From: Verrucomicrobiota bacterium
GTDB lineage: Bacteria; Verrucomicrobiota; Verrucomicrobiia; JADLBR01
Length of the DNA stretch: 44,585 nucleotides
Assembly: GCA_029560585.1 (NCBI GenBank)
Contig: JAKQKQ010000272.1
Coordinates: 1-44,585, forward strand
Direction of reading: 5' to 3'
Shown here: positions 11,937-37,873 of the stretch, piece by piece
How positions within the stretch are numbered: position 1 is the first letter of the stretch
Layout: each line of letters begins with the position of its first letter
Notes under the pieces: model-generated
Seen by the model: the letters and a program-made list of their open reading frames with translations, nothing else
Databases searched by the model: none
Told to the model about the DNA's origin: nothing
Made by a program: the position numbers and the translations under genes

Positions 11937-11954
11937 GCATCACTTGGAGGTTTT

Positions 11955-14900
11955 TTGATCCGCGTGCGACCGGATTCGGAATTCTATCGGCACTCTCCGG
12001 TGCGGGGCAACGCGATCGCGGCGTTTCTGTCTGGGGGTAGCGAGGGCGGAGTTGTCCGAGGCACGATCCGCAGAATGGCGTGCGTTGCGCTTGTCGGCTC
12101 TTGGGCTTGCGCCGTTCTCGGTGCGGGAGGGGTGGCAGAAAAGGCAGTGGTGCCGGCTCTCGCGCATGGGGGTGCCGAGCAGTCGGCGAAGGTGGCCGAT
12201 GCGGTGCCAAGACTGGAGACGAGGGCGATTGATTCGCTGCGGCAGGCGATAGAGGATCTGCGCCAATCGTTTGGCAATCGCTACCCGCGCGGGGAGGAGT
12301 TTCTGGATCGGTTGGGGGCCATCGAGCGTGACACGGCGAGTTTGGAGGCCGAGCGGGTGGCGGCGTTCGAGGGATTGCGGCGCGAGGCTTTGTTGGCGAA
12401 TCCGTTGCTGGATGGGATGCGGCTGCTGGTGGTGAAGCGGAAGGCGTCGGGCGCGATTCCTCCCAATGGGAACAAGGGTTGGTTTTCCCGGACGCCGGGG
12501 TTCGAGATCGCGATGCCGTCGAATCACGAGTGCAACTCGTCTCTGAACAAGGATGGGCATGAGGACGAGATCGCGGTGCTGGCGAGGGTTGCGCCGGATG
12601 GCGGGCTGTCGACGCTGCATCGCCCGGCGGGGGGTGGTTACGCGGGAGAGGTGGATTTGAATTGGGATGGGGGGCGTTTCCTCTTCACGCAGTCGGATGC
12701 CGAGAACTGGAAGATCTGGGAGATGCGGGTGGATGGGTCGGGTCTGCGGCAAGTGACACGGATGCCGGCCGACGTGGATTGCATGGATCCCTGCTATCTT
12801 CCGGACGGGAGAATCATGTTTGGCAGCACGGCGTCGTACCAGTCGGTGCCGTGCTGGCATGGCCTGAAGTGGGTCAGTAACCTTTACGTGATGGAGGCAG
12901 ACGGGACTGGGGTGAGACAGGTGTGTTTCGATCAGGATCATGACCTGCATCCCGTGGTGCTGCCGGATGGGCAGGTGATGTACAGCCGCTGGGACTATAC
13001 TGGGATTAACCACATCTACCTGCGGATGCTGATGGTGATGAACCCGGATGGCACGGGGCAGCGTGCGGTCTATGGCAGCAACTCGTGGTATCCTAATGCG
13101 CTGTATTTTCCCCGGGCCATGCCGGGGGCGGCGAACGGGATCGCGTGCATCTTGTCCGGCTACCACGGCCCGCACCGGATGGGGCAGCTGGTGCTGCTGG
13201 ACACGGGGGCGGGGTATCACGATGCGACCGGTATCGTGCGGCGCATCTCGGGGCGCGGCGATCCGATCAAGCCGGTGATACGCGATTGGCTGGTGGAGGA
13301 CGACTGGCCCCGGTTCCTGCATCCTTTCCCGCTGAGCGAAAAATATTTCCTGGTCGCGTGCCAGGAGGCGAAAGGTTGCGACTGGGGCATCTATCTCGCC
13401 GACGCTTTTGACAACCTTGTGCCGGTGAAACGGGAGCCGGGCTGGGCACTGCTCGAGCCGGTACCGTTGCGCGCATCGCCGCGGCCGCCCATCATCCCAT
13501 CGCGGGTGGACCCATCTCGCGATGACGCCCTTGTCTACATACATGATGTGCAGGCGGGCCCGGGCCTGAAGGGTGTGCCGCGGGGGACGATCAGGGCCCT
13601 GAGGGTGGTGGCGTATGATTTTGGTTATCGGGGGCTCGCGGGGCCCGACAAGGTTGGCCGCGGTGGACCATGGGAGGTGATGCGTATCGTGGGAACGGTG
13701 CCGATCGAGGAGGATGGATCGGCGGTGTTTCGGGTGCCGGCGCGCACGCCGCTGTTGCTGCAGGCGCTGGACGCGGAGGGGAAGGCCGTGCAGTTGATGC
13801 GGAGTTGGTTTGCGGCGCAGCCCGGGGAGAATGTGTCGTGCGTGGGTTGCCACGAAACGCCGCGGGACACAGCGGTGCCGCGCGTGTCCATCGCGTCGAG
13901 GCGCGCGCCGCGGGAAATTGATGCGTGGTTTGGGCTGGCGCGGGGGTTCGATTTCGCGCGCGAGGTGCAACCGGTGTTGGACAGGCATTGTGTCGGATGC
14001 CACGACGGGAGCGATCCCACGATGCCCGACCTCCGGCCCGAAGAGCGCGTGTTGGGCTACAAGGGATTGCCGGTGTCCAAGATGGAAATCGATCGCCTGC
14101 TGCCCGAGATCCGGGAGGCGACCGGCGGCGTGTTTAAATACACGCCTGCGTACGAGGCGCTGTTGGGGTACGTGCGGCGCGTGGGCATCGAGGATGATGT
14201 CAGCATGCTGGTGCCCGGAGAGTATCACGCGGATGTCAGCCCGCTGATCCAGTTGTTGAAGAAGGGGCATGGCGGGGTGCGGTTGGCCCAAGAGGATTGG
14301 TCACGCCTGGTGACTTGGATTGATATGAACGCGCCGTGCCATGGCACGTGGGGCGAGGTGTTCCCGATCCCGAGGGACGCGCACGCGCGGCGGATGGCGA
14401 TGCGGCGACAGTTCGGCGGGCCGAAAGACGATCCCGAGGCGGTGCCCGAGGTGGGGCGATCCGAGGTCGAGGCCATTGCGCCGAGGCCCGTGCCCGAGGC
14501 GAGGCCGGTGACGCTCGATGGCTGGCCGATGGATCTGGAAAAGGCGCGGTTGCTTCAGGCCCGTTCGACAGGCTCAGGGCAGGCATCGGGCGGGCCGCAG
14601 GAGAAAGTGATCGATCTGGGCGGAGGCGTGACGATCCGACTGATTCGGATCCCGGCGGGGCCATTCGTGATGGGCGATGCGGGCGGGCAGCCCGACGAGC
14701 GGCCCGAGGCCGTCGTCAGGATCGAGCGCGGGTTTTGGATGGGGGCGACGGAAGTGAGCAACGAGCAGTATCGGCAGTTCGACGGCGGCCACGACCCGAA
14801 ATACTACGCCAAGCGCCATGCCCAGCCGGATGATCAGGGCCCGGCGCTTAACAGGCCGAGACAGCCCGCGGTGCGCGTGTCGTGGGAGGGCGCGATGGCA

Positions 14901-15458
14901 TTCTGCCGGTGGCTGTCGGGTCGGACGGGGATCGCGTTCAGCTTGCCGACCGAGGCGCAATGGGAATATGCGTGCCGGGCTGGGAGCGGGACCCCGATGT
15001 CGTTCGGGTCCATCGACGCGGACTACACGCCGTGGGCCAATGTGGCGGACATCATGTTCAAGCATGGCTATCGGCCGGCCAAACCCACCATAACAGGTGG
15101 GCTAGAACACATTCAATTGGACGGGAGCGCGCTGGCCGACGGGCGGTTCTGTGACAACGCGGTAGTGACCGAGGCGGTCGGCTCGCGGCAGCCCAACGCG
15201 TGGGGGCTGCACGACATGCATGGCAACGCTGCGGAGTGGACCCGTTCCCTTTACCGCCCGTATCCGTATCGCGATGACGATGGGCGCAACGTGCTGGCGC
15301 CGGCGGGCCGCAGGGTGGTGCGCGGAGGTTCTTTTTTCGATCCGCCCCGGCGATGCCGGAGTGCGCAGAGGCTGGAATATCCCGCCTGGCAACGCGTGTT
15401 CAACGCCGGCTTCCGGGTCGTCGCGGAAGAGGGGGATGGCAAGGTCGTGGCGAGGTAG
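11955..15458 (+). CDS. Beta-propeller (HZS-alpha-like) / dihaem / FGE-like fusion protein
   Basis: 1167 residues, probably exported: a hydrophobic segment (ACVALVGSWACAVLGAGG) follows an RR pair at residues 39-40. Residues about 130-620 form a PD40/propeller-like region, with repeats such as MDPCYLPDGRIMFGS and LHPVVLPDGQVMYSRWDYT, related to the hydrazine synthase alpha-subunit middle region. Two c-type haem motifs follow, SCVGCHE (Cys about 629) and HCVGCHD (Cys about 679). Residues about 890-1160 are an FGE/SUMF1-like domain (IPAGPFVMGD, SLPTEAQWEYACRAG, MHGNAAEWTR, VVRGGSFF, FNAGFRVV). In FGE the two copper cysteines follow GGS; here the first is Asp and only the second position is Cys (GGSFFDPPRRC), so oxidase activity is doubtful. 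A TTG start with GGAGG 4 bp upstream is favoured; ATG at 12075 is the alternative. Confidence 0.82.
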   Translation: MIRVRPDSEFYRHSPVRGNAIAAFLSGGSEGGVVRGTIRRMACVALVGSWACAVLGAGGVAEKAVVPALAHGGAEQSAKVADAVPRLETRAIDSLRQAIEDLRQSFGNRYPRGEEFLDRLGAIERDTASLEAERVAAFEGLRREALLANPLLDGMRLLVVKRKASGAIPPNGNKGWFSRTPGFEIAMPSNHECNSSLNKDGHEDEIAVLARVAPDGGLSTLHRPAGGGYAGEVDLNWDGGRFLFTQSDAENWKIWEMRVDGSGLRQVTRMPADVDCMDPCYLPDGRIMFGSTASYQSVPCWHGLKWVSNLYVMEADGTGVRQVCFDQDHDLHPVVLPDGQVMYSRWDYTGINHIYLRMLMVMNPDGTGQRAVYGSNSWYPNALYFPRAMPGAANGIACILSGYHGPHRMGQLVLLDTGAGYHDATGIVRRISGRGDPIKPVIRDWLVEDDWPRFLHPFPLSEKYFLVACQEAKGCDWGIYLADAFDNLVPVKREPGWALLEPVPLRASPRPPIIPSRVDPSRDDALVYIHDVQAGPGLKGVPRGTIRALRVVAYDFGYRGLAGPDKVGRGGPWEVMRIVGTVPIEEDGSAVFRVPARTPLLLQALDAEGKAVQLMRSWFAAQPGENVSCVGCHETPRDTAVPRVSIASRRAPREIDAWFGLARGFDFAREVQPVLDRHCVGCHDGSDPTMPDLRPEERVLGYKGLPVSKMEIDRLLPEIREATGGVFKYTPAYEALLGYVRRVGIEDDVSMLVPGEYHADVSPLIQLLKKGHGGVRLAQEDWSRLVTWIDMNAPCHGTWGEVFPIPRDAHARRMAMRRQFGGPKDDPEAVPEVGRSEVEAIAPRPVPEARPVTLDGWPMDLEKARLLQARSTGSGQASGGPQEKVIDLGGGVTIRLIRIPAGPFVMGDAGGQPDERPEAVVRIERGFWMGATEVSNEQYRQFDGGHDPKYYAKRHAQPDDQGPALNRPRQPAVRVSWEGAMAFCRWLSGRTGIAFSLPTEAQWEYACRAGSGTPMSFGSIDADYTPWANVADIMFKHGYRPAKPTITGGLEHIQLDGSALADGRFCDNAVVTEAVGSRQPNAWGLHDMHGNAAEWTRSLYRPYPYRDDDGRNVLAPAGRRVVRGGSFFDPPRRCRSAQRLEYPAWQRVFNAGFRVVAEEGDGKVVAR

Positions 15459-23426: not shown

Positions 23427-24728
23427 CTAGCGGCGCCATGGTGGGCCGTCGCCGCGTCCACCGTAGCGGCTTGGCCGCATAACCTCGCGTTTTTGTTCCT
23501 CCGTGAGCGGGGCGGACTGGAGCCAGGATTCGGCGGCGGCCTGATCTCTGCGGTACCAGTCACGGGCAAGATCGACCGTTATGTGGGTGCGGGAATTGGC
23601 GTCGGATATGCTGCTGGCCCATTGGATTGCGGCGGCGGGGTCCTGGTTGGCGATGTTGCGCGCGTAGGAACTGATGATGCGGTCGCCTTCTGGGCCGGCG
23701 GTCACGTTGCTATTGAGCCAGGTACCCGCCGAATTGGGGTCCTTCTCGGCCCACTGGCCGACTGCCGAGGCGATCGCGGAAACGCGCTCGTCGCCCTGCG
23801 GCAACTGGTTGGCCCAGGCGATGGCCTGCGCGGGGTTTTGCTGGGCCATTTGTTGGGCGACCCTTCGGGCCGCATCGGACATGTCGTATTGTGCGGCACC
23901 TTGCTGGACCCACTGGGCGGCGGCGGCGGGGTCCTTGTTGACCCATTCGCGGGCGATCCGGTCCAGGGCATCGCGTTGGGCGGCGGGATCGGTGAGGGTC
24001 TGGGCCCAGGCCGCGGCGGCGACAGGATCCTGTCGGGCGTACTGGCCGGCAATCATTTCGGCATAGCGGGCGTTGGACGTGCCCCCCTCGATGGTGGCAA
24101 GACGCTTGGCGGCTTGTGCCGGATCAATGGACGCGAGCTGATAGAGGACACCGCCAACGGCGAACTGGGATTGATTTCCGCCTAGGCTCTTGGCCCAGGC
24201 GAGGGCGCCTTCGGCGTCGGTGCGCACCCAATTTGCCATGGCGGGTTGGGCGACGAACGTGCCGCGCATGCCGAGTTTCTCAATGGCATAGCCCATGGCG
24301 GCTTTGGGGTCGAAACGGCTCCAGGCGTAGATGAGAAACCGGTAGGCCTCCAAGTTCTCGAACGAATCGCCGCTGACTTCGTTAAAGGCGGCGAGGACCG
24401 AGTCGAGATTATTGGGGTTGAGGCCCTCGAGGAGTTTGAGGAGGCGCATGCCGCGTTGGATGAGGTCGGTATCTTCGAGCGCGGCCTTGAGTTCCTTCGC
24501 GAAATCGGCCGGTTTGAATGCGGTCTTGGAGGCGGCCAGGGTGGTGCCCTTGTTCCCTGCCGTGGCGGAGGCAGCGACGGAGGGCGCGCTGCCGGCGCCT
24601 GACGAGCGGTTGGCGGGCAGCCGACGGCCATCGCGGGAGGAGCCAGGGCCGAATGACCGGCCGGCGAAGAAGGAGAGGCCCAACGAGACAGCCCAGAGGG
24701 TGACGGGGATCCAGAGAGAGCGTTTCAT
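23427..24728 (-). CDS. Exported helical-repeat protein of unknown function
   Basis: 433 residues. The N-terminus (SLWIPVTLWAVSLGLSFFAGRSFG) is a signal anchor, followed by a low-complexity Ser/Ala/Gly linker to about residue 70. From about residue 140 the protein is built of about eight imperfect 30-35-residue helical repeats with the motif 'DP..A..W...L.....R..A...IA..W...DP', for example DPVAAAAWAQTLTDPA and DPNSAGTWLNSNVTAG. The C-terminus ends in a Gly/Arg-rich tail. Such proteins recur in PVC genomes without assigned function; the solenoid suggests protein-protein interaction in the envelope. Nothing links it to its neighbours. Confidence 0.75.
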   Translation of the reverse strand: MKRSLWIPVTLWAVSLGLSFFAGRSFGPGSSRDGRRLPANRSSGAGSAPSVAASATAGNKGTTLAASKTAFKPADFAKELKAALEDTDLIQRGMRLLKLLEGLNPNNLDSVLAAFNEVSGDSFENLEAYRFLIYAWSRFDPKAAMGYAIEKLGMRGTFVAQPAMANWVRTDAEGALAWAKSLGGNQSQFAVGGVLYQLASIDPAQAAKRLATIEGGTSNARYAEMIAGQYARQDPVAAAAWAQTLTDPAAQRDALDRIAREWVNKDPAAAAQWVQQGAAQYDMSDAARRVAQQMAQQNPAQAIAWANQLPQGDERVSAIASAVGQWAEKDPNSAGTWLNSNVTAGPEGDRIISSYARNIANQDPAAAIQWASSISDANSRTHITVDLARDWYRRDQAAAESWLQSAPLTEEQKREVMRPSRYGGRGDGPPWRR

Positions 24729-24834: not shown

Positions 24835-24937
24835 GTGGGTTTGGAAAGCGATGGGCAAATGATGGGCACGAGGCACGCCCGGTGTGCATCGTGTGGGGGG
24901 GGGGTGGCAGGTCGCGTCGGATCAATGGGGTCCCGAG
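24835..24937 (+). pseudogene. Out-of-frame zinc-ribbon half of the kinase N-terminus
   Basis: In the frame starting at 24835 (ATGs at 24859 and 24862) the DNA encodes RHARCASCGGG up to a 10-G tract. The kinase frame, one base further on, continues GWQVASDQWGPEMACPACG. With nine Gs instead of ten the two join into one CxxC-x(n)-CxxC zinc ribbon, the usual N-terminus of many PVC kinases. Either the tract has slipped (in the cell or in sequencing), or the kinase is made from the ATG at 24938 without the first half. Confidence 0.5.
24895..24904 (+). other. Ten-G homopolymer tract
   Basis: Ten consecutive G residues just upstream of the kinase start, at the junction of the two reading frames that together encode a complete zinc ribbon. 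A prime site for polymerase slippage or for an assembly error. Confidence 0.85.
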
Positions 24938-26746
24938 ATGGCGTGTCCCGCATGTGGGATGCCGGTGGCGCCGGGGGCACTCGTGGGCCATTACCAGCTA
25001 TTGCGGGAAGTGGCGAGCGGGGGGCTGGGGAGCTTTGCCGAGGCGGTGGATTCGGTGGCTGGGCGGCTGGTGGGGATCAAGATGCTGAGGGCGGATCTCT
25101 TTGGGCGGAGTGATTTTGTGGAGCAGCTGGGGCGGGAGGCGCGGGTGGCGGCGAGGATCAACCACCCGAACGTGGCGGAGGTGTACGACTTCTTTGAACA
25201 GGGGGGGACGCATTTCCTGGTCATGGAGTACCTGGACCACGGGAGTCTGGCGACACGGATGAAGGGCGGGCCGCTCGGTGAAAGGGAGCTGCTGCGGATA
25301 GCGCTGGATGTGACGCGGGGATTGCAGGCTGCCAGCGCAAAGGGCCTGCTGCACCGGGACGTGAAGCCTGCGAACATTGTTTTCGACGCCCACGGGCGGG
25401 CGAAGCTGGTGGACTTTGGGCTTGCCATGCCGGCCGACGAGGCGAGGCGAGGCAGCGGTTCGGCGTGGGGCTCGCCGTACTACATACCGCCCGAGCGATT
25501 GGGGGGTGAGCCCGAGGATTTTCGGGGCGACATATACAGTCTGGGGGCGACGCTCTTTCACGCTGCGGCGGGGAGGCCGCCATTCAAAGGGGACTCCATT
25601 GTGGCGCTGGCCGCCAAGACTCTGAAGGCTCGGAAGGCCTCAGTTAAGACGTTTGCGCCTCACCTGAGCGAGGAGACTGCCTGGATCATCAACCGGTGCC
25701 TGGAGCGGGCTCCGGGCGCCCGGTTCGGGAGCTATTTCGAGCTGCTTGAGGCGCTGGAGACGGCGCAGCGCAAGGCGCTGACGGCTCCAGAGGTGGTGCC
25801 GGTGTCGGCCCCGGACGTCATCGGAGCCGAGCGAGACATGGCGTGGTCGGTGCGGTGGCTGGCCATTGCGGCGGCGGTATTCCTGCTGTTGGGCGGGGGT
25901 GCGTGGTTAGCCCTGAAGTTCCGTGCGGGGCGAGACCTGCTGGGCGGCACGGGGGGCGAGGCGCCGGTTGCGGTCGCGGCGAAAGGGGAAGTGGCTGCGT
26001 CGGTGCCCGTTGCGGCGAGCGAGCCCGCGGCGCGTTTGAGCGTGGTCCGTTTTTCGAGTGATGAGGGGTATGCGCAGGGCGATCTGGGGAATCATCCGGA
26101 TTGGCAGGCGCTGCATGGCCCCTCTTGGCTGGTGGATGCGGGGGGCGGCTCGATACTTTTCGGCAGGGATCTGCCAGCGCAGGGGCCGGGAGTGGTTTTC
26201 AAACGGGGCACACGATTGGATTCGGGCACTCTGTTGCAGGCGCGGGTGAGATTCTCGTTCGATGGGCTGGGGGGGTCCACATGGCATCAGCCCAGGCAAA
26301 TCGTCATGTTCCGCCTTAGGGATGCGGCGCGCAATGATCCTCGGGGTCTGGACGTGATACTGGTTCGCGAAGCGAATCAGGCCGAGCGGTATCGATTGAC
26401 GGCGCGGTTTGGCATCCCGAGGGAAGACAAGATGGTGGGGTTTGCGGACATCCGGAACTTTGAGTTGGGGGATGAGGGTATGGGTGCCGGCGATGCATCC
26501 GACCCGTTGGAGCTGGTGGTCACGATCCGCAAAGGGGCCGAGGCCGGCGGTTGGTGGCTGCGGGCCTTACTGAGGAATTTGGCCAAGGTGAGCGACCTGG
26601 CAAAGGTCGAGAAGGGCAACGTGTGGGTGCCGGACGAATTCCATGCCACGACCGAATATCGGGGGGAGTTGCGTTCTCGGAAGGAGGAGGAGCGTTCGGC
26701 ACGCGTCCAAGTGACCGAGTGGGTGTTTGGCACTGTAAAAGAGTGA
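24938..26746 (+). CDS. Membrane-bound Ser/Thr protein kinase (PknB-like)
   Basis: 602 residues from the ATG at 24938. Cytoplasmic kinase domain about 17-280: glycine-loop region LLREVASGGLGSFAEA (degenerate: the loop aromatic and one Gly differ), ATP-site Lys48 in VGIKML, helix-C Glu67, catalytic loop LLHRDVKPANIVF (Asp141), Mg-binding VDFGLA (Asp159), and SPYYIPPERL in the P+1 region. CPACG at residues 3-7 is the second half of a zinc ribbon. One TM helix (about 304-327) leads to an exterior domain of about 270 residues, rich in beta strands, that I cannot assign to a family. It converges on the vWA gene of the Exb operon (11 bp), so it is not co-transcribed with it. Confidence 0.88.
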   Translation: MACPACGMPVAPGALVGHYQLLREVASGGLGSFAEAVDSVAGRLVGIKMLRADLFGRSDFVEQLGREARVAARINHPNVAEVYDFFEQGGTHFLVMEYLDHGSLATRMKGGPLGERELLRIALDVTRGLQAASAKGLLHRDVKPANIVFDAHGRAKLVDFGLAMPADEARRGSGSAWGSPYYIPPERLGGEPEDFRGDIYSLGATLFHAAAGRPPFKGDSIVALAAKTLKARKASVKTFAPHLSEETAWIINRCLERAPGARFGSYFELLEALETAQRKALTAPEVVPVSAPDVIGAERDMAWSVRWLAIAAAVFLLLGGGAWLALKFRAGRDLLGGTGGEAPVAVAAKGEVAASVPVAASEPAARLSVVRFSSDEGYAQGDLGNHPDWQALHGPSWLVDAGGGSILFGRDLPAQGPGVVFKRGTRLDSGTLLQARVRFSFDGLGGSTWHQPRQIVMFRLRDAARNDPRGLDVILVREANQAERYRLTARFGIPREDKMVGFADIRNFELGDEGMGAGDASDPLELVVTIRKGAEAGGWWLRALLRNLAKVSDLAKVEKGNVWVPDEFHATTEYRGELRSRKEEERSARVQVTEWVFGTVKE

Positions 26747-26757
26747 GGGACCACCGG

Positions 26758-27807
26758 CTACTTGCGGGCCTTGGCATCGAAGTCTGTGAATCGACCGCCG
26801 TTGCGAGCGGCGAGGCTCTTGAGGAGTTCGCGTTCGGCCGGTTTGTTGGGCCCGGTCATGAAATAGATGGTGTGGAGGCGGGCCTCTTTGGGAAGTGATC
26901 GCTGGAGCTGGGCGGTGAGCCCCAAGATGTCATCCGTGGGGATGGGGGTGTCCTCGACGAGGGCATTGCCATCGGAGAGCATGTAGATGATCTCGGGGCG
27001 CATCGCGAAGGCCTGGCGCAGGGCAAGGTCGTGGCGGGTGCCGCCGGGGCCTTCCCGCAGCACATCGCGACAGATGCTGCCCAGGCGCCTGTACGCGTCG
27101 GGGCCGAGGTCATTGCGGACGAACGCGGTGGCGGCGGCTTTGGTGGCGTCGGTGGCGGGCACGCATTCCTCTTTCCATCGGCCGGCGCCGCCGCTCCACA
27201 CGACGATCCCGAAACGGCTATTGATCCCGAGGCCCGTGATCAGCGAGGTCGCCTGTTCTTTGACCGCGCCGAAGGCCGCGTCGCCGAGGCGAAGGAACAT
27301 CGATCCCGAGACATCGATCATGATGACGACGGAGCGACCGGTGTCCTGAATTCCAAAGAAGCTCATGCCGTCGCCGTTGCCGCCGCCGGCGCCCACGCCG
27401 GTGCCGAGGCCCGCGAGGCCCTGGCCCGCCATGGCCGCGATGCTGTCGGCGATCATGGAGGATGGGTTGACGGCCATGAGTTGGTCGACCGGCAGTTTGG
27501 GCAGTGCTGGCATGCCGTGCTCCAGCAAGCGGGAGGTGGTCAGGCGGTCGTTGAAGGCTGGCGCGGAGGCGGCGCCCTCGAATTCCGCCAAGGCCATGCT
27601 GTGCTCGCGCGCCTCGGGTTCGATGCGGACCATGTTGCGGCATTCGAATTTGGCCGGCGCAGGCGCGAGATAGCGGGCGACGATCCACGCAGCCGCGCCC
27701 AGGGCCACCGCCGCATGTAGTCCGACGCTCAGCACTGCGGCGGCCGCGATGGTTTTGCGTCTCTGGCGCACCGTGAGCGCAGCAGCGGGGTGCACGAGGC
27801 CGGTCAC
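26758..27807 (-). CDS. vWA-domain protein with a TonB-like membrane anchor
   Basis: 349 residues. A short basic N-terminus (VRQRRK) precedes one TM helix (about 19-48). The helix begins AAAAVLSVGLHAAVALGAA, so Ser27 and His31 have the S-x3-H spacing that TonB uses to work with ExbB/ExbD. A periplasmic linker with a Gly-rich stretch (about 131-148) leads to a von Willebrand A domain from about 158. Its MIDAS is intact: DVSGS (Asp165, Ser167, Ser169), Thr257 in GPGGTR and Asp279 in MLSDGN. The GTG start overlaps the upstream ExbD stop by 4 bases. Last gene of the operon, in the slot where TonB would be. Binding partner unknown. Confidence 0.87.
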   Translation of the reverse strand: MTGLVHPAAALTVRQRRKTIAAAAVLSVGLHAAVALGAAAWIVARYLAPAPAKFECRNMVRIEPEAREHSMALAEFEGAASAPAFNDRLTTSRLLEHGMPALPKLPVDQLMAVNPSSMIADSIAAMAGQGLAGLGTGVGAGGGNGDGMSFFGIQDTGRSVVIMIDVSGSMFLRLGDAAFGAVKEQATSLITGLGINSRFGIVVWSGGAGRWKEECVPATDATKAAATAFVRNDLGPDAYRRLGSICRDVLREGPGGTRHDLALRQAFAMRPEIIYMLSDGNALVEDTPIPTDDILGLTAQLQRSLPKEARLHTIYFMTGPNKPAERELLKSLAARNGGRFTDFDAKARK

Positions 27808-28262
27808 AAGGGGCCCTCGTCGCCGGTTTCGGTCGCGAAAGTCAGTCCGGTGATGTGCGCTGCCGCCAAGGCATCCATGACTTCCGCGATCCGCTGGTGG
27901 GGGGCATCGTCGTCGGCCGCGATGGTCACGAGCGCCTCGGTCTTGTTGGCATCGCAGGCCTGCTTGAAACGGGCCATCGTGGCGTGCAGTTGCGGCAATT
28001 CGTGCGATGTGGGGTGATCGAGCGGGAGATCATTGAGCACGATCTGGCCGGTCGCGCGGATCTCGACGCGCTGCTCGTCGGGCAGGTCAATCGGTTCGTC
28101 CTGTTCGACGGTGCCGGGCAGGCGGAGGCCAAGATCAGCCTCGGGCTTCGTGGGTCGTGCCGTGACCATGAAGAAGATGAGCAACAGAAACACCATGTCG
28201 ATCATGGGGCCCATGGGGATGTCCACCGTTTCGTATCGGCGCCTGCGCCACGTCGTTGCCAT
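27804..28262 (-). CDS. ExbD/TolR family protein (second copy)
   Basis: 152 residues. An N-terminal basic stub (MATTWRRRRYE) leads to a single TM helix, IDMVFLLLIFFMVTARP, whose Asp22 matches the essential proton-pathway Asp of ExbD. The periplasmic part (about 45-150) has the ExbD/TolR fold pattern, ending ...QRIAEVMDALAAAHITGLTFATE. It starts 8 bases after the first ExbD ends and overlaps the vWA gene by 4 bases. The two ExbDs share the anchor (GPMIDM / APMIDM) but differ in their periplasmic parts, so they may form heterodimers. Confidence 0.9.
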   Translation of the reverse strand: MATTWRRRRYETVDIPMGPMIDMVFLLLIFFMVTARPTKPEADLGLRLPGTVEQDEPIDLPDEQRVEIRATGQIVLNDLPLDHPTSHELPQLHATMARFKQACDANKTEALVTIAADDDAPHQRIAEVMDALAAAHITGLTFATETGDEGPL

Positions 28263-28270
28263 GAAATCCC

Positions 28271-28690
28271 TCAGTCTGTCTGTTTTTGGGAGCCGAATAT
28301 GACTTCGAGCGCCCCGGCCTCTGCGGCCGCGGTCATGACCTCCTTGATCCGGCGGGCCGGCGTGCGCCGATCGGCGCGGATGTACAGTCGCAGCGGCGGG
28401 AATTCGATGTAGCGGCGGCGGAGGAAATCCTTTAGGGCCGGCATGTCGGCGGGGCGTTCGCCGAGGAAGATGCCCCCGGTGGGGTCGAGATTGATGATTT
28501 CGCGATCCGAGAGATCGTCGGGTATCGCCGCGTGGCGAACGATGGGGAGATCGATTTCCATGAGGCGCTGCTGGTCGGTGATGCGGGTGGTGACCATGAA
28601 GAAGATCAGAAGCAAGAAGGTCATGTCGATCATGGGTGCCAGCTGAAAGCCGACCTCGTCGGGCTGATGTCGGCGGGCGCGAAGGGACAT
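28271..28690 (-). CDS. ExbD/TolR family protein (first copy)
   Basis: 139 residues. MSLRARRHQPDEVGFQLAP precedes the TM helix IDMTFLLLIFFMVTTRI with the functional Asp at 22. The periplasmic domain contains RLYIRADRRTPARRIKEVMT, the typical late ExbD helix, and ends VIFGSQKQTD. It lies 28 bp after the ExbB gene and 8 bp before the second ExbD. Inner-membrane subunit of the proton-driven motor encoded by this operon. Confidence 0.9.
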   Translation of the reverse strand: MSLRARRHQPDEVGFQLAPMIDMTFLLLIFFMVTTRITDQQRLMEIDLPIVRHAAIPDDLSDREIINLDPTGGIFLGERPADMPALKDFLRRRYIEFPPLRLYIRADRRTPARRIKEVMTAAAEAGALEVIFGSQKQTD

Positions 28691-28718
28691 GGGGGGTGGG
28701 TTTGCGGGGCTTTTGGGG

Positions 28719-29567
28719 TCAGGCGGTCAGCCGGTCGACGGCGGGTTCCGCCAGAACGTCGCGTTCGGTGCTGGCGGCGCGCGGCTCGACGCCCTCGACG
28801 GCAATCTCGCCGGTGAGGATGTCGAGGAGAAGGACCACATCTTTTTGCACCTCGGTCACGGCGCTCTGGACGTTGTTTCGGTACAGCATGTACATCAGCA
28901 TGGCGGGGATGCCGACCATGAGGCCGCCGGCGGTGGTGATCATCGCCTCGCCGATGCCACCGGCTAGATCCTGGGGCTCGCAGAGGCCGGCGGAGAGCTT
29001 GTCGAAGGCCTGGATCATGCCTGTCACGGTGCCGAGGAGCCCGAGCATGGGGGCGACGGTGGCAAAGAAGTTGAGGTAGTTGATCCAATACATGAAGCGG
29101 GTTTCGCCGTGGGCGAGGGTGTCGGCGGCGGCCTGCTCCATGGGTGCCCGGTTCGCGTGATCGCGCTCGAAATTGGCTTTGATGATCGCGGCCCCCAGCG
29201 TGTCGGTCAGGAGGCCCGGATGCATGCGACACGTCTCGAACGCCTCGTCGATACGGCGATTTGCCAGGGTCCTTTGGAGGTGAGCCATGAGATGGGGCGC
29301 GGACAACCGGCGGCGCCCGGTGAGCAACCACGAGTAGACACCGACGGCGACGGTGCCCAGCGAGCACGCGGCAATCGGGTGCATGAGCCAACCGCCGGCC
29401 CAGTAGATGTCCAGCAGTGACTTGTCCTTCTGCTTTTTCTTCAGGCGTTCCGCGACGATTTCCTCCGTCTGCTTCTCATCCTGTGTCTTTGGCTGGGCGG
29501 CGGCGACCGCGGCGTCGAGGGCCACGGCCGTGGCGCAAATGGCGAGCCATGGAAAGATCTTCTTCAT
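28719..29567 (-). CDS. MotA/TolQ/ExbB proton channel family protein
   Basis: 282 residues. ATG at 29567 with AGGAAA upstream. An N-terminal signal-like segment (PWLAICATAVALDAAVAAAQ) and a charged stretch with KKKQKDK precede the three family helices: one at GGWLMHPIAACSLGTVAVGVYSW, one at NFFATVAPMLGLLGTVTGMI with the conserved GLLGTVTGM block, and one at GIGEAMITTAGGLMVGIPAM. In ExbB/TolQ these form the pentameric proton channel around an ExbD/TolR dimer. The N-terminal extension is common in PVC homologues. Fourth gene of the operon. Confidence 0.9.
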   Translation of the reverse strand: MKKIFPWLAICATAVALDAAVAAAQPKTQDEKQTEEIVAERLKKKQKDKSLLDIYWAGGWLMHPIAACSLGTVAVGVYSWLLTGRRRLSAPHLMAHLQRTLANRRIDEAFETCRMHPGLLTDTLGAAIIKANFERDHANRAPMEQAAADTLAHGETRFMYWINYLNFFATVAPMLGLLGTVTGMIQAFDKLSAGLCEPQDLAGGIGEAMITTAGGLMVGIPAMLMYMLYRNNVQSAVTEVQKDVVLLLDILTGEIAVEGVEPRAASTERDVLAEPAVDRLTA

Positions 29568-29590
29568 CTGGGGATTTCCTGATGTCTGGG

Positions 29591-30400
29591 TTATTTTAAC
29601 TCGGCAGTGGGTTTTTGGGTCAGGGCGCCCGCGGCGCGGGCGAAGCTGGTGGTGTTCGAGTAATCGGCGACGATGGTTTCGAGCCAGCGGCGCGCGAGGT
29701 CGCGATTGGTTCGCGCCAGTTCGATTTGGGCAGCCTCCCACAGGCCTTGGGCGGCCTCTTCGCGGAGGTCGGGAAAAAGGACTCGGGTGTGGAGGAAGTG
29801 ATCGATGGCGAGATCGAGGTTGGTGAGGCCGACCTCGACGCGGCCTTTGGCAAGGCTCGCGAAAGCGATGGCGGAGGGGTCGTCGGTCTCTCTGCCGAGG
29901 GCGCGGGCGAGGTTGAGGGCCGCATCGAGCCTGCCCAGTTTTGCCAGCGCTTGCACGCGCATGGCATCCGCGCGTTGGCGGAGGGTGGGGTCGGGATGGA
30001 GGGCGGAGAGGGGGTCGAGCAGGGAGAGGGCCTCGGAAAACGCGCCGGTATCCAAGAATGCCTGGGCCAGGGCCAGGCCGATGGGGCCGGCGTCGGATCC
30101 GCGCACGGAGAGGAGGGGTTTCTGGGCGGCCCACAGGGGGCGCAAGGCCCGCAACCGCTGGTCTGCCGCGGTGGGCAGGTGCGCGGGCGTGAACGGCGTT
30201 CCGGGTTCGATGCGGGCGATGCGCGAGATCTCGCAGGCCAATTCGGCGCGGCCGTTGCCGATGCGCATTTCGATGCGCAGGCGGCCATCCCGCACGCCGA
30301 GGAGGTGACCCTCAAGCGTATCGTTGTTTGAAAGGACGACGCGATCCTTTTGTGCGACGGCGGCGAAAACGAACAGGGTCAGGAGGGACAGTTGTGTCAC
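29591..30400 (-). CDS. Exported TPR-like protein, third gene of the Exb operon
   Basis: 269 residues with a short signal peptide (LSLLTLFVFAAVAQ). The first 60 mature residues (VVLSNNDTLEGHLLGVRDG) look like a small beta-barrel of the kind often annotated SH3/Sm-like in PVC exported proteins. From about residue 85 on it is helical, with TPR-type pairs such as ALSLLDPLSALHPDP and ALAKLGRLDAALNLARAL. The GTG start overlaps the upstream TPR gene's TGA by 4 bases; 23 bp separate it from the ExbB gene. Periplasmic location is inferred. Partner or scaffold of the Exb motor is the likely role. Confidence 0.78.
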   Translation of the reverse strand: MTQLSLLTLFVFAAVAQKDRVVLSNNDTLEGHLLGVRDGRLRIEMRIGNGRAELACEISRIARIEPGTPFTPAHLPTAADQRLRALRPLWAAQKPLLSVRGSDAGPIGLALAQAFLDTGAFSEALSLLDPLSALHPDPTLRQRADAMRVQALAKLGRLDAALNLARALGRETDDPSAIAFASLAKGRVEVGLTNLDLAIDHFLHTRVLFPDLREEAAQGLWEAAQIELARTNRDLARRWLETIVADYSNTTSFARAAGALTQKPTAELK

Positions 30401-33348
30401 GGGAGCCTGCCGAGTTGCGCCTGGGCGAGGCTGTGTTCAGCGAAAGGGGCGAGGTCCTCTCGCGCGAGGAATTCCTGGTAAGTTTTGCGTGCGCCGTCCC
30501 AGAGCTTGAGCTGTTCCAGGACACGGCCGCTGGCCAGGTAGGCTCTGGCGACCCATGGGCGGTGCGCGCCGTACATGACATAGACGCGCTGGTAGCATGG
30601 CATAGCCTTCTCGGGGTGTCCGAGGGCCTCGTGGGATTCACCAATGAGGCATAGTGCGCGAGCCTTGGCGGCGCCCGTGGCAGAGGGGGCCTCGAGGAGT
30701 TTCTCCATTTGTGCGATGGCTTCGGCGTGGCGTCTCTGACCGAGCAGGATGTCGGCGCGGGCCTCGATGACGCGGGCCTTGAGGAGGGATTGGCCCGCCT
30801 CGCGCTCGAATCGGTCGAACAGTTCGAGGGCGTGTATCCAATCGCCGCGGGCTGAGGCGATGAGGCCGAGGCCCGCGAGGGCGCGGGGGAATTCGGGGGT
30901 TCCGGGGCCGGCGTCGAGCAGGTGGCGCAGGTATGGTTCGGCGTCGGGCGCGCGGTTCAGGGCGACGAGGAGTTCGGCGAGATCGATGGCCACTGTCGGT
31001 GGCAGGATATTGGGGTGGAATCCCTCGGTAAGTTCGAGCAGCACCTGTCTGGCGCGCGCCGGTTCGCGGCGGGCGATTTTTGAGATGAGCCAGGTGCAGC
31101 GCGCGGCGAGGGCGGGGTGTGAGGCGGCGTTCGCCTCGGCGGCGGCGCGGCGCAGTTCCCCCTCGAGGCGGGAGCGATCTTCCGGGGTACGGTGCAGTGC
31201 CGCGAAATCCAACAACAGGGGCTCGACCGATCGATTGGCCGGGTCGGGGCCCACACGCGCAATGATGGTGCGATAGAGGTCGGCGGCCTCGGGATGTCGG
31301 CCCTGTTGCCGCAGGGCCCATGCGAGCCAGTGGAAGGCTTCGGCGATGCGCGGACTTTCGGGATGGGCTGCGACGAAGGTCCGGAAGTGGGACTCGAGCT
31401 CGGCGTGGCGACCGGTGAGTCGCAGGGCTTTTCCGATCTGGAACTGGGCGTAATGCTGGAGTGTGGGCTGGGCGGCTGTGACGGCGCGGTAGGATTCGAG
31501 CCCGGCGTCGATTTCGCCGCACGCCAGGCAGGCATCGCCGTGCAAGGCGCGGACCTCGTCCGTGAGGGCATGTCCGGCGAAATCCTTGAGCCAGCGGTCG
31601 AGCGCCTTTCGCGCCTCGGGAAACTCTCGTTTGCCGTACCGTGCGGCGGCTTTCCGGTAGAGGGCCTCCTGCTTGAAAGCGCCGGTCGGGTGGGCCGCGA
31701 GGTAGGCGTCGAAGCGTTCGGCGATGGCGTCGTAATCCTTGGCGAAAACGGCGGCCATGGCGCGCCAATATCGGGCCTGCTCGCAGAGTGGGCTGGCCGG
31801 ATACCGGTGGCAGACATCCGAGAAAGTCGTTGTCGCCTCGTCGTTCAGGTTGAGGGAAAGGGCGCAATATCCGGCGAGGAAGAGCGCGCGGTCGGCCTCG
31901 GGGAAGTCCGGGTGGCTCTGGTTATGCGCGAGGAATGCGTCGTGGGCGGCGCGATGGTCGCGGAGTTCGAGATGGGCGTGGGCGGCGAGGAATTCCACCC
32001 TGGCGGCACGGGCCTCGGCCGGGTGGTGTTTCAGGAATGAGGCGCATTGCTCGGGAACCTTATCCCATCGTCGGGATTCGATACATGACAGGATCGAGAG
32101 GAAGGTGGCATCGGCGGCCAAGGGCGAGGTATCTGGGACCGATGCGGCGGCCTCGCTGGCGGCGACGAACGCCTCGCGATACCATTCGAGTTGAAATGCC
32201 GCGCGCGCGAGCCGCATGTGGCGGGCGGCGTCGAAATCGACAATTCTTTCTATGGCGGTCTTTTCTGCGAGCATCGCATCGCGGATGTGGGCGAGGTGCT
32301 GGTGGCGACCGGAGGGTGGAGCGGAGGCGGCGCTTGCCGCGAGGTCACGTTCGACATCCGCGAGCGCCGACGAGTGGCGGCGGAGGATGCGGCCACGCGT
32401 GGGCACAAGGAGGTAGCAGCGCCAGGCCTTCTCGGGGTTTCCGCGGTCGAGGAATTCGTCGCCGAGGTGCAGGGCCTGTGCGGCGGGCAAGGCCTGTTGC
32501 CGCGGCGTGGGATCGCGACTCACGAATTGCGCGAGCAGCGCGAGCGCGGCATCGGCCTCTCCGAGGTCCATCTGGCATTGCACCTGCAATAGGGTTGAGC
32601 GCTCGGCGATGAGGGGGTCGGGGGCCGTCGTGAGTTTGGAGAAGCGATCAGCGGCGCCGCGCAGATCGGCGGCCCCGCGGGCGGCAAGCGCGGCGAGGAA
32701 AGCTGCATTGGGAGCCTGCTCGTGGTGCGGGTAGGCGGCGGTGAAGCGGTCGAGTTCCTGGACGGCCGCGGCACAGCCTTGCCCAAGGAACAGCGTCAGG
32801 CCGAGCCAGAACGACATCTCCGGCCGCGCCTTTCCGGCGGGGAAGAGGGAGAGGTATTCCTCGAGGAACGGACGGGCCTCGGCGGCTTTGCCGTCTGCGA
32901 GCAAGGAGCCGGCCAGCATGGGGAGGATGCGCTCGCGCGCGGCCTGGGCTTCTGGGCTCTGGCCATAGAGGTCGAAGAAGCGCCGGAAGGCCGAGGAGGC
33001 GTCCGAATATCGACCGGACTGGTAGGCGCTGTAACCGGTGGTAAGGAGAAGATCGGCCGGGGGAGCATCATCTGGGATGGTTTGGGCGGGCGCGGCCGGT
33101 GGTGTGTTGGTGGCATGGCGAAATCCGGCGGGCCGAGGTTTCTCATCACGGCTGACGGGGATCCGGTCCGCCGGGGTTGGTTCGTTGCGACGGCGGCTAG
33201 CGTTCGCGGGCTGCGGGCTGACGGAAATGAGGGCTGCGAGCGACAGGAGGAGCCATCGCGATAACGATGGCGAGAGCGGCTCCGGTGCCGAATCCGATGC
33301 CGGGTCTGATACGGATAGCGATGGGCATGGCAGGCGCCGGGTATTCAC
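30397..33348 (-). CDS. Large exported TPR protein
   Basis: 983 residues. A long N-region precedes a clear signal (LSRWLLLSLAALISVSPQPANA), then a Pro-rich linker to about residue 95 and roughly 25 tetratricopeptide-type units to the C-terminus. Examples are TGYSAYQSGRYSDASSAFRR, ALGHPEKAMPCYQRVYVMYG and ARKTYQEFLAREDLAPFA. It resembles the TPR outer-membrane assembly partners encoded beside ExbB/ExbD in many PVC and Bacteroidota genomes. Its last 350 residues are clearly homologous to the whole TPR part of the next upstream gene, so one arose by partial duplication of the other. It overlaps both neighbours by 4 bases. Confidence 0.82.
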   Translation of the reverse strand: MNTRRLPCPSLSVSDPASDSAPEPLSPSLSRWLLLSLAALISVSPQPANASRRRNEPTPADRIPVSRDEKPRPAGFRHATNTPPAAPAQTIPDDAPPADLLLTTGYSAYQSGRYSDASSAFRRFFDLYGQSPEAQAARERILPMLAGSLLADGKAAEARPFLEEYLSLFPAGKARPEMSFWLGLTLFLGQGCAAAVQELDRFTAAYPHHEQAPNAAFLAALAARGAADLRGAADRFSKLTTAPDPLIAERSTLLQVQCQMDLGEADAALALLAQFVSRDPTPRQQALPAAQALHLGDEFLDRGNPEKAWRCYLLVPTRGRILRRHSSALADVERDLAASAASAPPSGRHQHLAHIRDAMLAEKTAIERIVDFDAARHMRLARAAFQLEWYREAFVAASEAAASVPDTSPLAADATFLSILSCIESRRWDKVPEQCASFLKHHPAEARAARVEFLAAHAHLELRDHRAAHDAFLAHNQSHPDFPEADRALFLAGYCALSLNLNDEATTTFSDVCHRYPASPLCEQARYWRAMAAVFAKDYDAIAERFDAYLAAHPTGAFKQEALYRKAAARYGKREFPEARKALDRWLKDFAGHALTDEVRALHGDACLACGEIDAGLESYRAVTAAQPTLQHYAQFQIGKALRLTGRHAELESHFRTFVAAHPESPRIAEAFHWLAWALRQQGRHPEAADLYRTIIARVGPDPANRSVEPLLLDFAALHRTPEDRSRLEGELRRAAAEANAASHPALAARCTWLISKIARREPARARQVLLELTEGFHPNILPPTVAIDLAELLVALNRAPDAEPYLRHLLDAGPGTPEFPRALAGLGLIASARGDWIHALELFDRFEREAGQSLLKARVIEARADILLGQRRHAEAIAQMEKLLEAPSATGAAKARALCLIGESHEALGHPEKAMPCYQRVYVMYGAHRPWVARAYLASGRVLEQLKLWDGARKTYQEFLAREDLAPFAEHSLAQAQLGRLP

Positions 33349-34856
33349 GGGATGGACTGGAGTCGTTCTCTTGCGAGGGCGGATTCTTCGCGGCCGGCGA
33401 GATCATCGCGTTGGAGGAATTCCTCGTAGGTGGCGCGGGCGCTTTCCCAGAGATGGAGTTTTTCGAAGATGCGACCGCTGGCGAAGTAGGCGGTGGCGGC
33501 GGCGTCGCGCTGATCGCCGTACATGGCGTGAACGCGCTGGTAGTAAGGCATGGCTTTTTCGGGCTGGCCGAGGGCCTCGTGGCATTCGCCGATGCTGCAA
33601 AGGGCGCGCGCCGCGGTGGGGCCCTTGGTCTTGGGAGATTTCAGGAGCATCTCGAGAACGGCTATGGCCTCGGGGTGGCGTGCCTGGGTGATGAGGATTC
33701 GGGCGTGGCACTCGAGGATATTTGGGAGCAACGCGGACTTGACGTTGTCTTCCTTTTCGAAGGTCTCGAAGATCGCGAGGGCTTCGTCGGAGTCGCCCCG
33801 TTCGGCGGCGATGAGGCCGAGTGCGGCGAGCGCGCGTCGGCCCTGCGGGGTGTCGTCGTGGCAGGCGAGGTGGCGGAGCAGCGGCTCGGCCTCGGCGCGA
33901 CAGTCGGCGGCGATGAGGTGTTCGGCGATGTCGATGGCGATGGTTGGGGGGAGTAGCTCCGCCGGGATATCGCGGGCGAGGCCGAGGAAGGTCTGGTGAG
34001 TGCTTTCGGGGTGAGACCTTTTGGCGAATCGCGCGAGCAGCCACGCGCATCGGGCGGCGAGCGTGCGCCGGCCGGCCGAGCAGGCCCTCGAGCAGAGCGC
34101 CGAGAGGTCGCGTTCGAGAGCGATACGATCCGCGGGCGCTTTGTGCAGCTTGGCGCAGGCCAGGAGGATGGACTCGACGGCCCGGTTTGTCGGGTCATCG
34201 CCGAGGTCCTCGATGGCGGCGCGGTAGAGCTTGAGTGCCTCTTGCGCGCGGCCTTGGCGCTGGAGCGCCAGGGAAAGAGAATGATAGGCCCTGGGGAGCC
34301 GGGGGGTTTTCGGGTGGGACGCGATGAATGAGCGCAGTTGCGCCTCAGCCTCCGGGAAACGCCCCGAGTTGAGCAGGGATTCGCCCAATTCAAGGAGGGC
34401 GTACTGGCGGATGGGTGGCTGACTGCCGATGATGTTGGGATCGACGGGGGCTCTCTCGTCCGATGAGTCTTGTGGAGAGGAGTCCTTTGGAGAGGAGTCA
34501 TCGGCGGGTGTGATGTCGCAGACAACCTGTTCTTTCCCGCCCGATGTCCCGTCTGTGGATGATTGCTGCGCGGCGTCTTGGCGCGTCTCGAATGAGGCAA
34601 CGCCCAACGCCAGCGCAATACACGCCGGTCCCAAAATCCCTAGCACGGGCGCAGGAAAGCGACGCTGTCGGAAAGTGTCAAGGGGAATTTCGTGAAAACT
34701 GCAATCGCGAGTTGACTCAAGTGAAACGCCCAAGGGCAGCGCCGACACCGGGCGCTGCCTGCGCGCCTTAAAGGACGATGTGAGCTGGCCCAACGAGTGA
34801 TTCAGTTTCCGGCAGCTCCACGCCTCCCTCCAAGGTTGGATCACTGCCAACAACAC
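33345..34856 (-). CDS. TPR protein, partial paralogue of the neighbouring large TPR protein
   Basis: Up to 503 residues; first gene of the Exb operon. TPR units fill about residues 150-503 and match the C-terminal third of the downstream 983-residue protein segment by segment (CHEALGQPEKAMPYYQRVHA versus SHEALGHPEKAMPCYQRVYV). Before them lie an acidic Ser/Asp-rich linker and one hydrophobic segment (VLGILGPACIALALGVASFE), a probable signal or anchor. The first 50 codons run antisense to a transposase relic and are unlikely to be native. The true start is uncertain and may lie near 34640-34730; no good ribosome site was found there. Confidence 0.7.
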   Translation of the reverse strand: MLLAVIQPWREAWSCRKLNHSLGQLTSSFKARRQRPVSALPLGVSLESTRDCSFHEIPLDTFRQRRFPAPVLGILGPACIALALGVASFETRQDAAQQSSTDGTSGGKEQVVCDITPADDSSPKDSSPQDSSDERAPVDPNIIGSQPPIRQYALLELGESLLNSGRFPEAEAQLRSFIASHPKTPRLPRAYHSLSLALQRQGRAQEALKLYRAAIEDLGDDPTNRAVESILLACAKLHKAPADRIALERDLSALCSRACSAGRRTLAARCAWLLARFAKRSHPESTHQTFLGLARDIPAELLPPTIAIDIAEHLIAADCRAEAEPLLRHLACHDDTPQGRRALAALGLIAAERGDSDEALAIFETFEKEDNVKSALLPNILECHARILITQARHPEAIAVLEMLLKSPKTKGPTAARALCSIGECHEALGQPEKAMPYYQRVHAMYGDQRDAAATAYFASGRIFEKLHLWESARATYEEFLQRDDLAGREESALARERLQSIP

Positions 34857-34950
34857 CGACTTCCCTCACTCGGCGCTCGACTGCCGGACGCCGCAGCACT
34901 ATGAGGACCAGCACGCAGGACAAACCCAACCCATAGTCGCCGCCCACTAA
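34801..34950 (+). pseudogene. IS3-type transposase C-terminal relic
   Basis: In the plus frame ending at TAA 34948-34950 the DNA encodes GWITANNTDFPHSALDCRTP then QHYEDQ. This is the end of an IS3/IS481-group integrase core (consensus 'YN..RPHSALGYRTP..Y'). An in-frame stop at 34798 cuts it off from anything upstream, and no further transposase is seen. It overlaps, on the other strand, the first codons of the operon's TPR gene, so this insertion or its decay reshaped the operon's 5' end. The 133 bp to the sialidase stop show nothing else. Confidence 0.65.
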
Positions 34951-35083
34951 CTCTCGGTTGCCTTAACTGGTAGCCATGCACGACCAAGCTCGCCGATGGC
35001 AACGGGGCGTCGCGGGATTGACGTCCGGTGCAGCGACTGGTTTAGCGCGCGGTAATTCCCGTGGTCGACTTGTCAACATGATC

Positions 35084-36929: not shown

Positions 36930-37873
36930 GTGCGCCCAGCATGGGCGCGTTGGAAATGGGTTGCAAGTCCCCTGCAGGAGAACCAGACATGGAAACATGA
37001 AGAGACTACCACCCGAAGCCAACCCCGGAAGGGCAACCGACCGGGGGGAGGAAGGCTAGGGGGAACCCGCGAGCCGACGGCCCAGGGCGTGCCTCAGGGT
37101 GGGCCGCTGTCGCCGCTGCTGGCCAACATCACGCTCGATCCCCTGGACAAGGAACTCGAACGGCGCGGGCACCATTTTGCCCGCTACGCCGACGATTTCC
37201 TGGTCATGGTCAAGAGCGCGAGGGCGGCCGAGCGGGTGATGGCGAGCCTGACGCGATTTGTCGAAGGGCGACTCAGACTGGTGGTCAACCGGGCCAAGAG
37301 CAAGTGCGCCCCGCTCCAAGAGTGCGCCTTTCTGGGCTTCCAGATCGGCCCTCGCGGTGCGGTGTGGACGGCCAAGGCCCGCGCACGCTTCAAGCGGCGG
37401 GTGCGCGAAATCACCCGCCGCAACCGGGGACACAACGCGCGGGACGTCGTCGATGAGCTGCGCCGCTATGTCACCGGCTGGCTCAATTACTTCGGCATCA
37501 GCAATACCTACACGGAATTGGAGGTGCTGGGGGACTGGGTCCGGCGAAGAGTGCGCCTGTACTACTGGAAGCAGTGGAAACAGCCGCGGACGCGCCGCCG
37601 CCAGCTGCTGGCCCTGGGTGTCCCGCCCGAGGAAGTGCATCTGGCCACGCGCAGCCGCAAAGGGTACTGGCGGATGAGTGCCAACAGCATCCTCCAGCGT
37701 GCCCTGACCAACCGCTGACTCCACGACCACGGGGTCCCCGACCTGCGCACGTCGTGGATTGTTCTTCACTACGGGCCCAACGCCCGTGTCTGATTGGAAC
37801 CGCCGGATGCGGACCCGCATGTCCGGTGGTGTGGGACCCGTGACTGACTAACCCTCAGTCACGGGGACCCGAT
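36930..37873 (+). mobile_element. Group II intron, internally deleted
   Basis: The 5' end reads GTGTGCGCCCAGCATGGGCG, the usual start of many bacterial group II introns. The 3' part has a domain V hairpin (about 37797-37836, GAACCGCCGGATGCGG...GCATGTCCGGTGGTGTGGGA) and a domain VI stem (GTGACTGA...TCAGTCAC), ending GGGGACCCGAT. At about 940 bp it is roughly half the usual length. Part of domain I and the first half of the encoded reverse transcriptase are missing, so it cannot move by itself. Confidence 0.75.
37072..37718 (+). pseudogene. Group II intron reverse transcriptase/maturase, N-terminally truncated
   Basis: The recognisable frame starts at EPTAQGVPQGGPLSPLLANI and carries RYADDFLVMVKS, the YADD catalytic box of the RT palm, so the fingers and RT blocks 0-3 are lost. 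Then come the thumb/maturase X region (WTAKARARFKRRVREITRRN...VVDELRRYVTGWLNYFGI) and the usual C-terminal end YWRMSANSILQRALTNR. The frame is open upstream to 36930 but that part is intron RNA, not protein. There are no internal stops in the surviving 215 codons, so the deletion is recent or the frame is open by chance of high GC. Confidence 0.8.

Follow-up and report, generated by a model that had tools for sequence, protein, structure and literature searches.

Organization of the locus

The window analysed here is the whole stretch of 44,585 nucleotides from contig JAKQKQ010000272.1 of a Verrucomicrobiota bacterium (assembly GCA_029560585.1). Seven minus-strand reading frames were found to be open in this verrucomicrobial locus at the positions first described, and their products are as follows:

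33345-34856, minus strand: TPR1, a genus-specific partial copy of the TPR2 C-terminal portion; the 5' end as annotated is doubtful
30397-33348, minus strand: TPR2, 983 aa, with a Sec-type signal sequence and YbgF/CpoB- and BamD-like TPRs, presumably periplasmic
29591-30400, minus strand: TPR3, 269 aa, with a signal sequence, a small conserved region at the N-terminus and, after it, TPR-like repeats
28719-29567, minus strand: ExbB/TolQ-like proton channel with a signal sequence, pore Thr180 and Thr212, and Ser69 aligned with E. coli ExbB Ser34
28271-28690, minus strand: ExbD1 (TolR-like), transmembrane Asp kept
27804-28262, minus strand: ExbD2 (TolR-like), a paralogue distinct from ExbD1, transmembrane Asp kept
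26758-27807, minus strand: putative vWA force transducer with a Ser27-x3-His31 helix, a linker of about 110 residues, and a vWA domain with a complete MIDAS

The 4-bp overlaps given in the initial annotation at 33345, 30397, and 27804 were confirmed from the ORF coordinates and are exact (33345-33348, 30397-30400, and 27804-27807); the remaining intergenic gaps in the operon are 23, 28, and 8 bp. Pfam searches with the operon proteins returned TPR families for three of them, MotA_ExbB (E=5e-25), and ExbD (E=4e-20 and 1e-21), and the vWA protein matched VWA_2 at E=6.5e-5, which is under the curated cut-off. The best NCBIfam models for the ExbDs and ExbB were TolR and TolQ, with scores under their cut-offs. 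Neither TolB nor Pal was detected among the operon proteins or the scanned neighbouring genes, and the operon holds no outer-membrane receptor gene and no outer-membrane export or surface component. A search of the vWA protein against plasmids gave no match, and a PADLOC check for defence systems gave no meaningful match.

Several other features of the window were recorded. The vWA gene converges, at a distance of about 12 bp, with a serine/threonine protein kinase gene (24884-26746, plus strand) whose product has a hydrophobic segment followed by a C-terminal part; the kinase is conserved with the operon in a sibling species (L032, 75% identity). A repetitive 433-aa protein without a Pfam match (23427-24728, minus strand) has a counterpart of 77% identity beside the kinase in the sibling species. 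The group II intron reverse transcriptase/maturase at 36930-37718 (plus strand) seems to be N-terminally incomplete, as RVT_1 was matched from profile position 111. Long ORFs of 1167 aa (11955-15458, plus) and 783 aa (11940-14291, minus) overlap each other on the two strands, and one of them is presumably a high-GC shadow frame.

TPR genes and the conserved core

Over its residues 142-503, TPR1 corresponds to residues 623-983 of TPR2. The duplicate is also present in the sibling species; loci in other families hold TPR2 and TPR3 only, and no TPR1-like extra copy was found in orthologous loci outside the genus. Since TPR1 is a genus-specific partial duplicate, the conserved core comprises six genes. 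The seven-gene operon described initially stands as a set of reading frames, while the reading as seven equivalent genes was rejected. Between the two species (NG86), dN and dS were 0.29 and 0.76 for TPR1, 0.20 and 0.95 for TPR2, and 0.13 and 0.73 for the vWA gene, which suggests that TPR1 is less constrained than TPR2 or the vWA gene, yet, with dN well below dS, still under constraint.

A short frame on the plus strand at 34750-34960 of the window is weakly similar to the C-terminal end of integrase cores (rve_3, E=4e-4, under the cut-off) and is probably an insertion-sequence remnant. Because the called 5' end of TPR1 lies antisense to this transposase-like remnant, the true start of TPR1 is probably near 34670-34640.

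Inspection by eye showed Sec-type signal sequences, with no obvious lipobox, in TPR2, in TPR3, and in most of their orthologues. TPR2 scored E=1.4e-49 against the YbgF/CpoB family. The signal sequences and the conserved co-occurrence described below are consistent with the proposal of the initial annotation that periplasmic TPR proteins are the working partners of the motor.

The vWA protein

In the AF2 model of the vWA protein, an N-terminal helix spans residues 13-47 and the vWA domain begins at about residue 158; pLDDT was about 90 over most of the domain, and the linker was mostly of low confidence. Foldseek comparison of the model returned vWA-domain matches, including the adhesive proteins LapA and SpaC, so that the predicted structure confirmed the vWA fold despite the weak sequence match. 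Pfam gave vWA families only, with no match to a TonB C-terminal domain, in agreement with the earlier view that a vWA domain takes the place of that domain here. Both of the sequence motifs given in the initial annotation are present: the anchor Ser27-x3-His31 in the N-terminal helix (SHLS-type, of which the Ser-His core was read) and a complete MIDAS (D165-x-S167-x-S169, T257, and D279).

Survey of related loci

A vWA profile was searched in 388 genomes of the phylum, and related vWA proteins were found in 121 of them. About 120 neighbourhoods were fetched, in which ExbB, ExbD, and TPR2-like genes were detected and the helix and MIDAS residues were read from the profile alignment. A separate contig scan using close orthologues returned seven loci, all from Verrucomicrobia-type MAGs.

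The conservation of gene order, which the initial annotation had proposed as a check, was strong over the approximately 120 loci. The order TPR-ExbB-ExbD-ExbD-vWA was kept in 59 of the 80 motor-linked heads and most of the others were close variants; a TPR gene was nearby in 73/80, and at least two ExbDs were present in 79/80.

The anchor histidine and its proposed ExbB partner

For the anchor His, only heads whose helix was complete and which had 4 kb or more of sequence upstream were counted. The His was kept in 69/73 motor-linked heads and in 18/34 unlinked heads, 16 of the latter having lost it (Fisher p=1e-6). After reduction to 60% identity the counts were 40/43 and 14/24 (p=0.001), neither set of counts being phylogenetically independent, and in the redundancy-reduced set the His column had the lowest entropy among the helix columns (0.5 bits, compared with 1.3-3.7). 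Among tree-independent pairs comparing His with the presence of a motor, none ran in the opposite direction, but the number of pairs did not suffice for significance. In the clade to which the window belongs (27 heads), unlinked heads carry Gln/Leu or similar residues in place of Ser/His; several unlinked heads in the survey retain the His. Linker residues 67-106 were also considered as a motor-specific 'motor box' and rejected, because the unlinked head L037, which lacks Ser/His, keeps the segment.

By cryo-EM of the complexes from E. coli, TonB Ser16 and His20 touch ExbB Ser34 and Trp38 (PMC12215075). When the profile of the ExbB family was aligned to solved structures, a TM1 Ser (Ser69 in this locus) fell on E. 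coli ExbB Ser34, and its equivalent was present in 73/77 ExbBs. The ExbB pore Thr was found in 77/77 at both positions and the Pro190 equivalent in 73/77. The position equivalent to Trp38, which in E. coli ExbB also touches TonB, shows no conservation in the vWA-motor ExbB family and was rejected as a conserved contact.

The paired ExbB lacked the Ser34-equivalent TM1 Ser in three of the four motor-linked exceptions to the His rule. Over all pairs, ExbB Ser and head His were both present in 69, both absent in three, and discordant in two, or in one when L063 was removed. This locus was left out of the covariation test because it has a single ExbD and probably an unrelated ExbB. In the test, the Ser34-equivalent was the best of 243 ExbB columns in tracking the head His (p=6e-5, the next column giving 0.018), and in the reverse direction, again without L063, none of the 308 head columns tracked the ExbB Ser better than the His did. 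The signal is carried by three His-less loci (L087, L091, and L101) from three different families and is thus small but specific. This covariation supports, at the level of aligned residues, a TonB-like docking of the vWA helix on ExbB, and together with the His counts it bears out the initial description of a motor-coupled, TonB-anchored vWA transducer.

MIDAS residues across the class

Among the 43 non-redundant motor-linked heads, D165 was invariant (43/43), DxSxS (Ser/Thr allowed) was kept in 30, and a full MIDAS was found in 20, with the Thr column aligned less surely than the others. In several clades the MIDAS is degenerate and both gene order and anchor are retained; the close orthologues L034, L035, and L036 are already without the MIDAS Thr. 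The MIDAS-degenerate heads still align over the linker and domain in profile comparison (99.7% probability). The initial annotation had named the loss of either Ser-x3-His or the MIDAS residues in same-order homologues as speaking against it, and the two motifs gave different answers: the His persisted in the 69/73 motor-linked heads counted above, and the MIDAS was incomplete in 23/43. Because same-order homologues keep Ser-x3-His and lose MIDAS residues, the description of the moving part as a metal-dependent adhesion domain does not hold generally for the class, for which the MIDAS appears from these alignments to be dispensable. The site is intact in the present locus, so metal dependence of this particular head is possible.

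Alternative heads on the same motor set

The same genome carries on contig C146 (L042:2681-6753) a TPR3-like gene, ExbB, ExbD, and ExbD, followed by a gene whose product combines an Ala-x3-His helix with a DUF4159 domain. In three distant genomes (L155, L156, and L157), ExbB-ExbD-ExbD is likewise followed by a membrane-anchored DUF4159 protein replacing the vWA protein. The DUF4159 anchors have Ala-x3-His in two of these clusters and a Ser-x3-Tyr-like motif, with Tyr for His, in the other two. No mention of DUF4159 was found in the literature searched.

Tandem vWA heads behind one motor were observed at L043:9763-11811 and L044:10471-13074. Noted with them was L040:7105-8562, an unlinked vWA head in the window's own genome that keeps Ser-x3-His and might share a motor in trans.

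Proposed mechanism and its alternatives

The reading considered probable assigns the operon to the TPR/TolQ/TolR/TolR/vWA class, as a trans-envelope force system driven by protons, in which the helix docks on ExbB and the head grips TPR2/TPR3. From their families, ExbB would form the channel and the ExbD1/ExbD2 pair the axle. The N-terminal helix of the vWA protein would dock on the side of ExbB, with Ser27/His31 placed against Ser69 as TonB Ser16/His20 are against Ser34, a step suggested by alignment, conservation, and covariation. The flexible linker of roughly 110 residues would carry the vWA head into the periplasm, where the head may grip a partner and thereby pull on an envelope assembly. 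TPR2/TPR3 are the most economical candidates for that partner. In this locus the intact MIDAS metal site could serve the head for binding, but the class at large appears not to need it.

A Tol-Pal-like stabiliser of the envelope or of division, in which the head and the TPR proteins would be counterparts of TolA and CpoB that constrict or maintain the envelope, would account for the YbgF/CpoB score of TPR2, for the TolR/TolQ models being the best, under their cut-offs, for the ExbDs and ExbB, and for the OmpA/Pal-like domains found elsewhere in the genome. This explanation is considered unlikely: the operon has neither TolB nor Pal, the TPR similarity is one of generic repeats, and the family occurs in only part of the phylum (the 121/388 genomes). 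It is less probable still that the operon encodes a gliding or surface-adhesion motor whose vWA head is, or drives, a surface adhesin via the MIDAS, like CglB in myxobacterial gliding. That option is raised in PMC12204202 and agrees with the intact MIDAS of this locus and the Foldseek matches to the adhesive vWA domains of LapA and SpaC, but an inner-membrane tether holds the head, the operon lacks an export or surface component, and a full MIDAS is present in fewer than half of the non-redundant motor-linked heads, though motor, order, and His persist.

A TonB-like import energiser, in which the head would drive a transporter of the outer membrane whose gene lies elsewhere, is regarded as very improbable. 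ExbB/ExbD and the docking motif are present and TonB-dependent receptor plug domains were found in the genome; against this, the vWA head has no TonB C-terminal domain and the operon no receptor, and the genome has separate proteins with TonB C-terminal domains. Given those separate TonB proteins and receptors, the vWA operon is no stand-in for TonB.

Beyond the proton-driven force system preferred for this locus, it is suggested tentatively, as a generalization that may well prove too broad, that ExbB-ExbD-ExbD-TPR serves generally as a chassis on which pulling heads (vWA with or without MIDAS, tandem vWA, and DUF4159) can be exchanged. In that case Ton and Tol would be joined by a third major trans-envelope system driven by the PMF, whose grip would depend on the head rather than on metal chemistry.

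Comparison with known systems

A PVC-group class of vWA force transducers (Tichowtungia family) was published in June 2025 in Mol Biol Evol (PMC12204202). According to that report, the class consists of a TPR protein, a TolQ-like protein, two heterologous TolR-like proteins, and a vWA protein with a TonB/TolA-type SHLS helix; force transduction is proposed for the vWA proteins, and an AF3 model places the anchor at the motor edge through a conserved His. The present locus is a further member of this class. The idea of a motor-driven vWA protein is accordingly not new, and the initial annotation arrived at it independently. The likeness to the class, as so described, extends to gene set, gene order, the SHLS-type helix with its His, the disordered linker, and the C-terminal vWA domain; the locus differs in its extra upstream partial TPR duplicate and second small TPR gene, and its MIDAS is intact where that of the surveyed class is variable.

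Three points are added to the published class. The docking pair of head His and ExbB Ser is detectable by sequence covariation; members of the class can, judged from the alignments, do without the MIDAS, and this speaks against a role in adhesion that depends on metal alone; and DUF4159 heads also occur on the ExbB-ExbD-ExbD motor set. With these points, a third PMF-driven trans-envelope system could be tested directly by genetics in a verrucomicrobium held in culture.

The second family in PMC12204202, the TolQ-only vWA pairs, also places a vWA domain on a TolQ-like motor, but is described there as having no ExbD and an Asp-bearing vWA helix in the pore without SHLS, whereas the present locus has two ExbDs and a helix proposed to dock at the side. 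The Fibrobacter succinogenes cluster FSU_2396-2403 (OmpA, TPR, TPR, ExbB, ExbD, ExbD, and TonB), reported as more abundant on cellulose (PMC6851124), shares the TPR, TPR, ExbB, ExbD, ExbD series as judged from the locus tags and tables of that article, in which the head belongs to the TonB family. Tol-Pal (TolQ-TolR-TolA, CpoB) is similar in its TolQ/TolR-like motor, SHLS-type helix, and periplasmic TPR protein, and differs in that the present operon lacks TolB, Pal, and the C-terminal domain of TolA and has two TolR-like subunits. With E. coli TonB-ExbB-ExbD the locus shares the proton channel residues, the Ser-x3-His anchor, and the ExbB TM1 Ser contact; in contrast to that system, ExbB Trp38 is not conserved, the operon is without a receptor, two different ExbDs and TPR partners are present, and a vWA head stands in place of the TonB C-terminal domain.
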